Assembly (NCBI RefSeq): GCF_009909615.1
Contig: NZ_WWNE01000005.1
Coordinates: 372,334 to 436,333 of the forward strand
From: Acidiluteibacter ferrifornacis
GTDB taxonomy: Bacteria > Bacteroidota > Bacteroidia > Flavobacteriales_E > Vicingaceae
Direction of reading: 5' to 3'
DNA: 64,000 nucleotides
The notes beneath the pieces are model-generated. The model was not told the origin of the DNA. It did not search any database and saw nothing but the letters and a program-made list of their open reading frames with translations. Position 1 is the first letter of the stretch, and each line of letters begins with the position of its first letter. A program made the translations under genes and the position numbers. Below, piece by piece: positions 28,667-35,769 of this stretch.

Positions 28667-30145
28667 ATGAAAAAATCTACACCCATAGGTCAATCATGGA
28701 CTAAGGAGAACTTAACTAAAGCATTAAATACAGCTGTTGCTGTAGAGTTATTTACAATTCCTGTATACTTAAGTGCTGCATCTTCAATAAAAATGGAAAA
28801 TCGAGCAGATAAAGTTATTCCGGCTACTGTTCATTCAAGCACTTCAGACAGCGGAACAGTCACAGAATTGTTTTCCGCTTATGATGTTATCATGTCTGTA
28901 GCAGTACAAGAAATGTATCATTTGACTTTGGCTTGTAATATTGCAAATGCATTAGGAGTTAGGCCTTCTGTAACTGCTCCCGATTTAAATAATCCTCCGA
29001 GTTGTTTGAATGGAATTATTGGAAAACCGGTAAAAGGTAATTTAAGCACGCTCATTGATACAATGCTAGCAATTGAAGCTCCTGACCCCAATTACCACTA
29101 CGATGAAAATCCAAGCAATCCAGTTTCTCCAAACGGACCTAAACTATACCAAGAAGAATACGATTCAATTGGTGACTTATATCACGCTTTAGCCTATGGA
29201 GTGGAAGCTTTATGGGATGAATTGTATTCCGCCGATAATGATGCCTATCAAAAACTTAATTTTCAAGGAAAATATGGAGAAGTAAAGCAATCGATTCAAA
29301 CGCTAGAGGATGCATTGAATGCTATGGCTTGTATCGTGGAAGAAGGAGAAGGTAATGGAGCCGAAGGTTTTATGCCTGGAGCATATGTTCCTGAACCTGG
29401 CCAAGAATATCAAGAGTTGGATGAAATTAGTCATTGGGAACGATTTAATGATATAAAAACTTACCTAAAAACCAATACTATTCCTCAGTATCAAGAAACA
29501 AATAGTGAAGTAATCAATGTAGCTCAAGGTAAACTAACAGAGGCATATTCTAAGGTAATTAATCAGATGAATGCTGATTTTTCGTCCCCAAACACTAGTT
29601 TAAATTTGAGAGGAATGTCTGAAACCGGCACATTAGCCACATCGGTTTGGCAAGGTGGAGAGGCCCCTCAGTGGAATTATACTAGCAAACCAACTCCTTG
29701 GCCACCTATACCTGCAGATGCGCACGTTTGTCAAGGTTTGAATATGTGTGCAGGAAAAGGGTTTAATAATTCAGGAACTGGTCCAGGTGATGGAGACTGT
29801 GCCACTGTAGAACAAGCATGCAGTACGTCTAATCAATGTAAAGGTCTGGGTGGTTGCGGATATGCTCCTGCAGGTCAAACTCCAACTCCCGGCTTAAATG
29901 ATTGTTCAGGTCAAGGTGGATGTCAATCTCCGATTTCTCCCTGCCAGGTCTATTCTAAGGGAACAAAAACTTATGGAGGAAAGCATGTTTGGGAGGTAGC
30001 CAGAACTTTGTTTGAAGAAAAAGTCAAAAAAGCAGGTAAGACCGTAAAACCCAACAATGGTAAAGTAATGCCACGAAGGTATTCTCCTGCTTTAAATCCT
30101 ACAAGTGGCGACCAAGGGAATACTTGTCCATTGCCTACCAAATAA
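28667..30145 (+). CDS. VioB/iminophenyl-pyruvate-dimer-synthase-type ferritin-like protein with Cys-rich C-terminal tail; probable MNIO substrate
   Basis: This 492-residue protein has no signal peptide. Residues 15-300 are a ferritin-like helical domain with probable di-iron ligands: Glu27 in VELFTIPVYL, Glu82/His85 in QEMYHL, and Glu253/His256 in EISHWERF. This matches the VioB-related ferritin-like family. Residues 350-430 are a Cys- and Gly-rich tail with nine cysteines (355, 361, 378, 385, 391, 397, 413, 419, 426) in units such as CQGLNMCAGKG, CKGLGGCG and CSGQGGC, plus Cys487. Such CxGxxxC/GGC repeats are typical of peptides modified by DUF692 enzymes. The DUF692 and DUF2063 genes follow, separated by a hairpin with a T-run. 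I infer that the ferritin-like domain serves as carrier and the tail as core. Confidence 0.85.
   Translation: MKKSTPIGQSWTKENLTKALNTAVAVELFTIPVYLSAASSIKMENRADKVIPATVHSSTSDSGTVTELFSAYDVIMSVAVQEMYHLTLACNIANALGVRPSVTAPDLNNPPSCLNGIIGKPVKGNLSTLIDTMLAIEAPDPNYHYDENPSNPVSPNGPKLYQEEYDSIGDLYHALAYGVEALWDELYSADNDAYQKLNFQGKYGEVKQSIQTLEDALNAMACIVEEGEGNGAEGFMPGAYVPEPGQEYQELDEISHWERFNDIKTYLKTNTIPQYQETNSEVINVAQGKLTEAYSKVINQMNADFSSPNTSLNLRGMSETGTLATSVWQGGEAPQWNYTSKPTPWPPIPADAHVCQGLNMCAGKGFNNSGTGPGDGDCATVEQACSTSNQCKGLGGCGYAPAGQTPTPGLNDCSGQGGCQSPISPCQVYSKGTKTYGGKHVWEVARTLFEEKVKKAGKTVKPNNGKVMPRRYSPALNPTSGDQGNTCPLPTK
29729..29944 (+). other. Cys-rich core region encoded in the ferritin-like gene
   Basis: Codons 355-426 encode nine cysteines in 72 residues. 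They are interspersed with Gly, Asn and Pro and lack the hydrophobic spacing of a folded domain. The units CQGLNMCAGKG, CKGLGGCGYAP and CSGQGGCQSP are related to one another. I mark this as the probable site of MNIO-catalysed cysteine modification. Alternatively the cysteines could bind metal directly. Confidence 0.6.
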
Positions 30146-30165
30146 TATCATTGATGAAGTGAACA

Positions 30166-30196
30166 GCGATGCAGAAGTTTCTGCATCGCATTTTTT
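30166..30196 (+). terminator. Intercistronic hairpin with T-run (attenuator or partial terminator)
   Basis: GCGATGCAGAA and TTCTGCATCGC form a perfect 11-bp stem (30166-30176 with 30179-30189) around a 2-base loop, followed by A and six T. It lies between the ferritin-like gene (stop at 30145) and the DUF692 start (30204). The structure looks like an intrinsic terminator and would keep the enzyme genes at a lower level than the substrate gene. Confidence 0.75.
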
Positions 30197-30203
30197 GTTT
30201 GAA

Positions 30204-31106
30204 ATGGAAAAAGAAAAAGCGTTCCCTTACCTAGGATTTGGTCTAGGACTTAGAAGTAAGCACTTTCAGTATATACTCAATAATAAGCCAGAGATTGATT
30301 GGTTTGAAATTATCTCTGAGAACTTTATTGATTCTAAAGGTTTTCCAAGATATGTGATACATCAAATTGCTGAACGCTATCCTGTTGTGATGCATGGGGT
30401 TTCAATGTCTATCGGAAGTACTGATCCAATTAATTTTGACTATTTAAAGAAGTTGAAAGTCATGGAAAAGGAAATCAATGCACAATGGATTTCCGATCAT
30501 TTATGTTGGACGGGAGTATTGGGAAAAAACACTCACGACTTATTGCCGTTGCCTTTGAATGAAGAAACTTTGAAACATGTTGTTGAGCGCATCAAAGTGG
30601 TAAGTGATTTCTTAGAGCGCCCATTGGTTTTGGAAAATCCAAGTTCTTATCTTCAATTTAAGTCTGATACATTGACTGAATGGGATTTTATCCGAGAGAT
30701 GGCCAATCAATCCGATTGTCGATTATTATTGGATTTAAACAACGTTTATGTGTCCTCTTTCAATCATCAGTTTGATCCGTTTGAATACGTAAAAGCATTG
30801 CCATTGGAAAAAGTGGTGCAGTTTCACTTAGCTGGGCATTTAAATAAAGGTACTCATATCATCGATACACACGACAATCATGTGGTTCAAGCCGTTTGGG
30901 AGCTATACCAAAAGACAATCCAATTAACAGGGCCAGTTTCTACTTTGTTGGAATGGGATTCCAATATCCCTGAGTTTCCTGAATTGAAAAAGGAAGTGTT
31001 AAAAGCGAAAGCGATTTTTGAAAATGGAAAACTTCCTGAAGAAGTACTGATTTCAAATAACACAGAAACAGTCTCCAATGCATTGTCAACCACACCAGCT
31101 ATTTAG
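30204..31106 (+). CDS. DUF692 family multinuclear non-haem iron oxidase (MNIO; BufB/MbnB-like)
   Basis: This 300-residue TIM-barrel protein is of the DUF692 family, which oxidatively remodels Cys or Asp residues of peptides (MbnB, TglH, BufB). I choose the ATG at 30204 (MEKEKAFPYLGFGLGLR); upstream in-frame codons from 30105 overlap the previous gene and the hairpin. Conserved metal-ligand candidates are present: His64 in MHGVSMSIGS, Asp98-His99 in ISDHLCWTG, Glu134-Asn135 in VLENPSSYL, Asp167/Asn169/Asn170 in LLLDLNNVY, His198 in QFHLAGH, the Asp211/His213 region and Glu240. It is followed 5 bases later by its probable DUF2063 partner. The substrate is inferred to be the upstream Cys-rich protein. 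Confidence 0.93.
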   Translation: MEKEKAFPYLGFGLGLRSKHFQYILNNKPEIDWFEIISENFIDSKGFPRYVIHQIAERYPVVMHGVSMSIGSTDPINFDYLKKLKVMEKEINAQWISDHLCWTGVLGKNTHDLLPLPLNEETLKHVVERIKVVSDFLERPLVLENPSSYLQFKSDTLTEWDFIREMANQSDCRLLLDLNNVYVSSFNHQFDPFEYVKALPLEKVVQFHLAGHLNKGTHIIDTHDNHVVQAVWELYQKTIQLTGPVSTLLEWDSNIPEFPELKKEVLKAKAIFENGKLPEEVLISNNTETVSNALSTTPAI

Positions 31107-31111
31107 GAATA

Positions 31112-31858
31112 ATGAGTGATTTAAAACAAATTCAAGAATGGATGGTGGGAGTGATTACTCATCCAAAAGGCGCTGTAATTGGTGCAGAAGAAACTTCCAT
31201 CAACGACCAACATTGGAACATTCAATCTGTTGTTTCTCCATCGGATACATTGACGAGTGAACAGCGAATAGGAATTTATCACAACGGATATTTTGCTCGG
31301 CTAATCGAATGTTTTAAAGTAGAATATCGTGGGTTATTGAATGCATTGGGTGAAAAACTATTCCAACACTTTGCATGGAATTTCTTATTGGAACATCCAT
31401 CCACAAGCTATACTTTAAATGATTTAGGTAAACTATTTCCCTCTTTTTTGGAATCGACTTTATTGGAAAATGAAAGCGCTCCAGAATCATGGCAGTTGTT
31501 TATTCTAGACGTGGCCAAATTTGAACGAACGTTTACTGAAGTATATAACGGGGAAGGACATGAAACTTTATTAGATACCAAATCAAGCAATCAACTTCAA
31601 ACCTCTCCTGCAATCGTGATGTTAGATTTGAAATTTCCGGTTGCAGAATGTATTGGTCATTTCCGAGAAGATAATTTCACCTCATTTCCAGAACCGATGA
31701 TTAGTCATTATGTCTTTACTCGTCAGAATTATATGGTAAAAGTATACCGTTTGGAAGATTCGGAGTATCAAATCTTGTTAGATTGGAAAAGTGGAGTGTT
31801 GGATTCTTGCCCCGATACGTTTCGTCAGAAATGGAAGGCGATTGGAGTAGGGTATTAA
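31112..31858 (+). CDS. DUF2063/HvfC-BufC-like partner protein of MNIO enzyme
   Basis: This 248-residue cytosolic protein has an N-terminal DUF2063 domain: RIGIYHNGYFARLIECFKVE, then GLLNALGEKLFQHFAWNFLLEHPSTSYTLNDLGKLFPSFLE, followed by a C-terminal mixed domain. In bufferin and related loci this protein binds the substrate leader and delivers it to the DUF692 oxidase. Placement directly behind the DUF692 gene (5-base gap) supports that role. It is longer than the minimal MbnC/TglI type partners and matches HvfC/BufC-like proteins. It converges with the WYL regulator gene. Confidence 0.9.
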   Translation: MSDLKQIQEWMVGVITHPKGAVIGAEETSINDQHWNIQSVVSPSDTLTSEQRIGIYHNGYFARLIECFKVEYRGLLNALGEKLFQHFAWNFLLEHPSTSYTLNDLGKLFPSFLESTLLENESAPESWQLFILDVAKFERTFTEVYNGEGHETLLDTKSSNQLQTSPAIVMLDLKFPVAECIGHFREDNFTSFPEPMISHYVFTRQNYMVKVYRLEDSEYQILLDWKSGVLDSCPDTFRQKWKAIGVGY

Positions 31859-34481: not shown

Positions 34482-35153
34482 TTGCAATCACTTAATTGTA
34501 AAAGCTTTACTGTATTTTTCATTATTATTAATCACCCCCAGACAACCAATTTAGAACTTCCTAGGTTATACATTCGAAAGCCAATCCAATTGAAAGAATT
34601 GATCTTAAACGAAGAAATACTAATTAAACATTGCATCGATAATAATCGACATGCGCAAGAAACCTTGTATAGCAATTATTACAAGGAATTGTACATCATT
34701 TCGATGCGCTATTTAAGTGATCATCACGAAGCTGAAGATGCTATCATTCTAACATTTACAAAGGTTTTCAATAATCTAAAATCTTTTTCCTACCAAGGCA
34801 AAGGAAGTCTGGGTAAGTGGATTCGGACAATAGTAATTAATGAATCAATTAGACTGTTGAATAAACGGAGTCAATTTGATTTTGAGAATGAATTGCACAC
34901 CATTGAAATTCAAAACAACTCACCAAATAGTGTGGAGCAGATGCAAGCTTCGGACATCTTAAAAATGATTGAACAATTACCTACAGGGTATAGAACCATT
35001 TTTAGTTTGTATGTGATTGAAGGGTATTCTCACAAGGAAATTGCAACACTTTTAAAAATTAGTGAAAACACTTCAAAAACTCAATTGAAGAAAGCTAGAA
35101 CTAGTTTAATGAATAGTATAAATAACGAAAATAGATCCTATGGAACCATCTGA
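34482..35153 (+). CDS. ECF-type RNA polymerase sigma factor
   Basis: The sigma-70 region 2 lies at about residues 45-115 (ETLYSNYYKELYIISMRYLSDHHEAEDAI, then FTKVFNNLKSF), and region 4 at about residues 165-215 (LPTGYRTIFSLYVIEGYSHKEIATLLKIS). No ATG occurs before region 2. The TTG at 34482 sits 8 bases behind AAAGGA and could start a 223-residue protein, but its first 35 residues look unlike sigma factors; a TTG at 34590 is the alternative. Its 3' end overlaps the next gene by 14 bases. It is probably regulated by that membrane protein as anti-sigma factor. Confidence 0.88.
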   Translation: MQSLNCKSFTVFFIIINHPQTTNLELPRLYIRKPIQLKELILNEEILIKHCIDNNRHAQETLYSNYYKELYIISMRYLSDHHEAEDAIILTFTKVFNNLKSFSYQGKGSLGKWIRTIVINESIRLLNKRSQFDFENELHTIEIQNNSPNSVEQMQASDILKMIEQLPTGYRTIFSLYVIEGYSHKEIATLLKISENTSKTQLKKARTSLMNSINNENRSYGTI

Positions 35154-35769
35154 TTTTGATGATATAATAAAAGGTAAGTTCGGGCAAGACAATGATTTGT
35201 ATTCCAATGAAATCGAACACTCTAAACCTTACGTTTGGACTGCAATTCAGCAAAACTTAATTGCAGATAAAGCTCCAATTAGATGGCATCATTTGGCGGT
35301 AGCGGTAATTCTATTGTTTATCTGTACTTCCTTTGTTATCTATCTTATTCAGCATCAACATCATAAAGAAATGAATCAGCTTGCCAAAAGCATGAATGTA
35401 ATGAACTCAAACTATTTAGCTCAGTCTAAGCAATTGCAACAAAAAGAAGAACAATTGAAGTGCCTTGAGGTTGATATTCAGTCATTAAAGCAAGATGATA
35501 AATTCAAGTCGAAGAAAGATTTGATCGTATCTAAACCGCATTATGTGTATCTAACAGATACTATTTATGTGAAGCAAATTAAATACATAACACAAATCGA
35601 AAATAGAGATACATTGGGTGTTTCATTGGCTAATAATGATACAATTATTGACAAAGAGTCGATAAAGCCGCACCAAATGATTTATCCAGTTTATAAAACG
35701 AGTAAATCAACAAAAGTGGAATCAGAGAATCTGAAAGTGAAGATTAACTCATTTGCTTCTAACCAATAA
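35140..35769 (+). CDS. Single-pass membrane protein, probable anti-sigma factor
   Basis: This 209-residue protein has a cytosolic N-terminus (1-48), one membrane helix at about residues 51-70, a coiled-coil segment (about 75-120; many Gln, Leu, Lys) and a periplasmic tail. It overlaps the ECF sigma gene and so has the place of an anti-sigma factor in Bacteroidota, but it has no recognisable zinc HxxxCxxC motif and the cytosolic part is short. Anti-sigma function is inference from gene order. Confidence 0.75.
   Translation: MEPSDFDDIIKGKFGQDNDLYSNEIEHSKPYVWTAIQQNLIADKAPIRWHHLAVAVILLFICTSFVIYLIQHQHHKEMNQLAKSMNVMNSNYLAQSKQLQQKEEQLKCLEVDIQSLKQDDKFKSKKDLIVSKPHYVYLTDTIYVKQIKYITQIENRDTLGVSLANNDTIIDKESIKPHQMIYPVYKTSKSTKVESENLKVKINSFASNQ

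Follow-up and report, generated by a model that had tools for sequence, protein, structure and literature searches.

We analyzed a 64,000-nucleotide stretch of the Acidiluteibacter ferrifornacis genome (Bacteroidota; NCBI RefSeq assembly GCF_009909615.1, contig NZ_WWNE01000005.1, positions 372,334 to 436,333 of the forward strand), hereafter called the window, in which a gene fusing a ferritin-like domain to a cysteine-rich tail is followed by genes for an MNIO (DUF692) enzyme and a DUF2063 protein. A preliminary description, made from the sequence alone, had proposed that the tail is modified by the MNIO. The features of the locus, in window coordinates and with the evidence for each in brackets, are:

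28667..30145, + strand: fused protein of 492 residues, ferritin-like domain plus Cys-rich tail (open reading frame (ORF) call, Pfam, Cys count, structure model)
28724..29458, + strand: PF12902 ferritin-like domain, residues 20-264, with E27, E82, H85, E137, E228 and H256 kept in relatives (Pfam, alignments, structure match)
29729..29944, + strand: Cys-rich core, residues 355-426, with nine Cys, apparently BufA2-related (Cys count, HHalign, alignment)
29987..30031, + strand: predicted helix after the core, residues 441-455, a candidate recognition element (alignment, model)
30204..31106, + strand: MNIO (DUF692, PF05114) of BufB type (Pfam, NCBIfam, alignment)
31112..31858, + strand: DUF2063 (PF09836) MNIO partner protein, PME type 1 (Pfam)

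The gene architecture was reproduced almost entirely as first described. Residues 20-264 of the 492-residue ORF matched PF12902 (E 4.8e-33; 115.3 bits against a Pfam cut-off of 22.3), and the nine tail Cys were found at positions 355, 361, 378, 385, 391, 397, 413, 419 and 426, to which we add a tenth at 487. The two following genes matched PF05114 (E 2e-107) and PF09836 (E 8e-15); the gap between the stop of the fused ORF and the MNIO ATG at 30204 is 58 bases, not the 59 reported earlier. Nine Cys in 72 residues stand against a background of 0.71% Cys in window ORFs of at least 150 residues (P about 3e-9), among which the next Cys-richest stretch of this length has 5. PF12902, PF05114 and PF09836 each had a single match in the host genome, all three at this locus, and the fused protein had no match at E 1e-5 in any of 45 other genomes of the window's order.

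The fusion seen in the window is a minority version of a four-gene set that is itself widespread. We refer to the separate ferritin-like protein as F and to the separate Cys-rich protein, the counterpart of the window tail, as A. A genome scan seeded on the alignment of the tail (A) alone yielded 269 relatives, and the 80 loci discussed here are the best 80 of these; because only A was used as the seed, the presence of F and the MNIO was not built into the result. All 80 loci (59 in Bacteroidota, 18 in Pseudomonadota and 3 in Acidobacteriota) carried F, A and the MNIO in that order on one strand, F being cut by the contig start in two of them (L059 and L101). A DUF2063 gene followed the MNIO in 78, and the contig ended first in the other two. 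Across 116 locus rows from three phyla, which represent about 102 distinct A cores and include ten second copies of the same contigs, F was a separate gene in 91 and fused to A in 25. The MNIO adjoined the tail family, fused or separate, in all 116. Among the loci examined, neither of the two sequence-based conditions under which the preliminary description would fall (Cys units not conserved, or the same tail in genomes without DUF692) was observed.

Two surveys of Bacteroidota gave the same picture. In a first search of 395 genomes, ten matched the A profile: nine had a full A, the window's own genome included, and the tenth had a BufA2-like peptide (23.7 bits). F lay beside or was fused to A in all nine; a separate A of about 200 residues adjoined a separate F in six genomes, and an F-A fusion of 696-699 residues was found in two. 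F scores above 500 bits occurred only in the six genomes with a separate A, and weaker PF12902 matches (26-94 bits) also occurred apart from A. In the order to which genome G424 belongs, A was present in 30 of 400 genomes (27 found there plus three from the 395-genome search, which are counted in both samples), with F, MNIO and DUF2063 in all 30. The long F-A fusion (about 674-759 residues; for example L025 5124-7223 and L192-L210) was the commoner form in this order, in 21 genomes, the remaining nine having separate genes. Fourteen loci with PF12902 proteins of other kinds served as a control and gave no match to A, MNIO or DUF2063 within the 6-13 kb examined for each.

The Cys of the tail are strongly conserved. 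Positions 355, 385, 391, 397, 413 and 419 are Cys in 116/116 aligned rows, which argues against the Cys-rich tail being a chance feature. Window Cys 361 and 378 are shared by 95 rows, Cys 426 is found in the window only, and position 372 is Gly in the window and Cys in the other 115 rows. The residue after C391 is Lys or Arg in 106 of 116 rows, that after C361 is Lys in 84 of the 95 rows with this Cys, and that after C397 is Gly throughout. A strict core pattern matched 86 of 89 sequences. After the core, A proteins share a conserved W..AR..FE stretch (aligned without L076 and L095), which coincides with the predicted helix 441-455 of the window protein and may serve as a recognition element; a strict pattern for this stretch matched 77 of 89, the misses looking like the result of too narrow a pattern. 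In the model of the fused protein (mean pLDDT 59.6), helices occupy residues 13-306, the tail is unstructured, and pLDDT falls below 50 over residues 315-439. The Kordia A proteins (L051 7737-8570 and L056 7779-8570) have an additional N-terminal Ser/Gly-rich repeat with NGCGSSG-like Cys units, reaching 21-22 Cys in total.

A looks like a relative of bufferin-2 that lacks a Sec signal. The A profile aligned with the BufA2-like peptide of locus L111 over 40 columns (HHalign probability 95.6, E 1.3e-8). N-terminal hydropathy of the 77 separate A proteins in the 80 loci reached at most 1.95, as compared with 2.21 for the BufA2-like control, and the highest values look like over-extended ORF starts; by hydropathy, A has no obvious Sec signal peptide, in agreement with the preliminary description. 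In the window protein, the ferritin-like domain forms the N-terminus. Separate A proteins have 155-277 residues as called in the 80 loci, apart from one over-extended ORF of 523 residues. A single peptide, itself below the cut-off of the curated BufA2 model NF050166 (49.4 bits), underlies both the HHalign comparison and the control for hydropathy, since L111 was the only yardstick: no genome reached this cut-off among the 296 Bacteroidota genomes searched for bona fide BufA2. A whole-genome search with the same model gave no match in the host genome at E 0.01, although the window protein itself scores 18 bits. That the fusion is the less common form of a four-gene set, and that its tail appears related to bufferin-2, go beyond the preliminary description. 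The L111 peptide (1393-2618), from a Bacteroidota genome, has a signal-like N-terminus and lies next to an MNIO.

F is probably a diiron protein. Residues E27, E82, H85, E137, E228 and H256 are kept in 87-88 of 88 F proteins (L101, in which F is cut short, being left out) and in 30/30 rows of another alignment, one enriched in long fused proteins; E253 is kept in 86 of 88 rows of the first alignment and is variable in the long fused type. These six match a carboxylate/His set that we take to be the diiron ligand pattern. Structure comparison, using VIA-align over chains ranked by Foldseek, placed the window model closest to 3HL1 (Caulobacter CC_0557; Z 22.4, rmsd 3.2 over 251 residues), a member of the same Pfam family with the same fold, followed by Dps proteins and ferritins with Z below 12. 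The model of a separate F (pLDDT 88.7) matched 3HL1 with Z 25.1. In line with one suggestion of the preliminary description, the domain looks like a second iron protein. Its assignment as VioB-type fares less well: what stands is presumably a link through the Pfam family only, as the window protein had no match to the VioB equivalog model TIGR04492 at E 0.1 and the L025 fusion scored 11.7 bits against a cut-off of 1250. Among the annotated neighbours of the 14 other PF12902 proteins are GMC oxidoreductases, in 3 loci, as well as a LodA/GoxA oxidase and a tyrosinase. In fungi, PF12902 genes also lie near lodA-like genes, according to PMC4417212. Three plasmids (L118, L119 and L154) carry a recurring cluster of a GMC oxidoreductase, a PF12902 ferritin-like protein, a small protein and iolE.

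The window MNIO scored 358.8 bits on the NCBIfam BufB model NF050167, above the cut-off of 310. Among 86 of the 89 MNIOs of F-A loci (fragments L049, L086 and L099 left out), many His, Asp, Glu and Asn residues are invariant (84-86 of 86). According to PMC13097082, the position of FonB Phe250 is Phe in Lys-Cys enzymes and Asp in Cys-Lys enzymes. At the presumed equivalent, which was deduced from 3BWW and not from an alignment to FonB, the 86 MNIOs have Gly in 50, Ser in 14, Ala in 7, Asn in 6 and Asp in 4, with 5 not read, and the L111 MNIO has Glu. All 34 DUF2063 partners given to the search, out of 86 available, matched PF09836.

In the ferritin tree, fused proteins from Ghiorsea, Acidobacteria and Pleionea lie inside the main F clade, and the window protein and the long fused type lie outside it (starred branch, 99/99). 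Fused forms thus occur in two or more distinct regions of the tree, which suggests that F and A were joined repeatedly; fusion followed by splitting is a possible alternative history. The A-linked F proteins stand apart from the 14 other PF12902 proteins (92/81, not decisive). In the MNIO trees, one of which was built without the fragments L049, L086 and L099 and without L020-L024, and in the ferritin tree, the window protein has a long branch of its own and groups with no relative at good support; long branches meet there, grouping it with the outgroup or with L025/L026, and we are unsure of its own position.

Compared with bufferin-2, that is, the Cys-Lys captophorins (BufA2-BufB2-BufC2), the present system has similar CxGxNxCKGxGGC-like Cys-Lys units, a BufB-type MNIO, a DUF2063 type 1 partner and the order precursor-MNIO-partner. 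It differs in that A has no obvious Sec signal, has the size range given above, carries a conserved post-core stretch and scores below the NF050166 cut-off; in having a constant PF12902 partner, sometimes fused; and in the presumed selectivity residue of the MNIO, where Gly, Ser, Ala or Asn usually takes the place of Asp. Similar to A, the adjamnio-I proteins of Antoine et al. 2025 (PMC12452194, Table 2) are Sec-less, have 8-21 Cys and 122-293 residues, and are encoded before the MNIO. They may overlap with A in size and Cys number and are set apart by their main-text description, in which their partner is PME type 2, whereas all 34 A partners examined match PF09836, and no ferritin-like gene is named with them. 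The same main text links Sec-less precursors to PME type 2, a link that a Sec-less A with a DUF2063 type 1 partner does not appear to follow. Known bufferin fusions (Buf1 with cytochrome c or FGE-sulfatase, and MerC-Buf2; PMC12452194) likewise join a bufferin domain to a metal-related domain, but none named in that main text is ferritin-like; it mentions neither ferritin, VioB nor PF12902. Term searches of PMC12538549, PMC12636315 and PMC8692599 returned no mention of ferritin. In the literature searched on MNIO, bufferin, captophorin and PF12902, which did not extend to supplements and most subscription journals, we recognised no description of the F-A-MNIO-DUF2063 set, and a ferritin-partnered, Cys-rich MNIO substrate was not found described there.

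Our preferred reading, held with moderate confidence, is that of a modification system of the bufferin-2-like (captophorin) type that operates in the cytosol and has a ferritin-like diiron protein as its dedicated partner. The flexible tail would be presented by the DUF2063 protein to the MNIO, and the enzyme would oxidize several of the tail Cys, perhaps where Lys or Arg follows the Cys and where Gly flanks it on both sides (Gly-Cys-Gly). As proposed earlier, this tail is likely to be the substrate core of the MNIO, because its Cys are conserved and an MNIO adjoins the tail family in every row. The product would most likely be 5-thiooxazoles, because these are reported to be installed in all characterized MNIO-PME1 cases (PMC13097082). 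Having no obvious signal peptide, the modified product would stay in the cytosol, where it would bind a thiophilic metal, most likely Cu(I), and act in physical contact with F, whose diiron site would handle iron, O2 or peroxide. The sequences directly show the gene order, the co-occurrence, the fusions in separate branches, the conserved Cys and ligand-type residues and the lack of an obvious signal peptide; from these we infer which Cys are modified and by what chemistry, which metal is bound, that F has a diiron site, and what F and A do together. If true, the bufferin (captophorin) class would have a widespread branch in the cytosol whose standing partner is a second iron protein, and there would be an exception to the published association of Sec-less substrates with PME type 2.

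Several observations weigh against this reading. A proteins score 18-24 bits on NF050166 against a cut-off of 60, and the L025 fusion has no match to this model. Gly, Ser, Ala or Asn occupies the presumed Phe250 position in 77 of 86 MNIOs, as opposed to Asp in Cys-Lys MNIOs; since these residues differ from Asp, substrate selection probably differs, and the modification sites or chemistry of F-A MNIOs may differ as well. A Pfam scan of four neighbours of the locus revealed no recognisable metal or DoxX gene. Modification and metal binding are properties that we infer for the A family as a whole. In a quick MNIO tree, the starred branches force only one change and are by themselves compatible with a single fusion. 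In addition, two kinds of enzyme relatives found in some loci do not suit a simple metal buffer: a flavin L-amino-acid oxidase relative in 18 of 80 loci (upstream in 15) and an indole/phenylpyruvate-decarboxylase-like gene in 19 (upstream in 16), both preceding F in many Flavobacterium loci (e.g., L075 2673-6428).

These enzyme relatives count in favour of a distinctly less probable reading, in which modified A serves F as a cofactor subunit. The heterocycles made by the MNIO would hold a metal or work as a redox group, and the complex would be an oxidase, not a buffer. This reading agrees with the joint occurrence of F and A in all samples, their fusion in separate branches, the ligand-type residues kept by F, and the GMC oxidoreductases or LodA/GoxA oxidase adjoining some other PF12902 proteins. 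Against it, most loci, including the window, lack the oxidase and decarboxylase relatives, the tail is predicted to be unstructured, and the substrate of the proposed oxidase is only hypothetical. We regard only tentatively the idea that thiooxazoles or related heterocycles on the tail form a protein-derived metal or redox cofactor integral to a diiron ferritin-like enzyme; if true, what MNIO chemistry makes here would be a cofactor built into an enzyme and not a free metallophore. The pair may be a module handling metal and oxidant or an enzyme with A as its cofactor, and the compact four-gene set makes a role of an MNIO product inside an enzyme complex experimentally testable.

The preliminary description had also offered the ferritin-like domain as a large folded leader. 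This finds no support as a general account, since F is a separate gene in most rows and cannot be a leader in cis there. A broader version, in which the main task of F is to act as a folded carrier or scaffold and offer A to the MNIO complex, either in cis as a fusion or in trans, seems unlikely to us. F does precede A, in a leader position when fused. The signal peptide is reported, from preliminary results, to belong to the recognition sequence of Buf1 (PMC12452194, Discussion); A lacks an obvious one, and F could take its place. A pure scaffold, on the other hand, need not keep six metal-ligand-type residues; a DUF2063 partner able to serve recognition is already present, and A has its own conserved post-core stretch, predicted to be helical in the window. 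The constant pairing of F with A, together with their fusion, argues that F is more than a leader, namely a dedicated partner. It is very improbable that the MNIO has another target and that the tail binds metal through unmodified Cys. Unmodified Cys-rich proteins are able to bind metals, and tail modification is deduced here; yet A, alone or fused, directly precedes the MNIO in 80/80 loci, the HHalign result relates it to BufA2, and every small ORF with at least three Cys in the vicinity of the window locus is contained in, or overlaps, one of the larger genes.

A further optional neighbour occurs in 18 of 80 loci from two phyla. One member (L089 1214-2584) bears a weak resemblance to the heme-binding beta barrel of THAP4 (18.7 bits, the cut-off being 25), and another gave no hit. 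Neither this neighbour nor the L-amino-acid oxidase and decarboxylase-like genes were seen next to the gene set in the window. At window positions 34482-35769, a sigma-factor-like ORF is followed by an anti-sigma-like ORF with one hydrophobic stretch, as judged by eye; these are not counted in the system because an RtcB-like gene and a gene of opposite orientation separate them from it.

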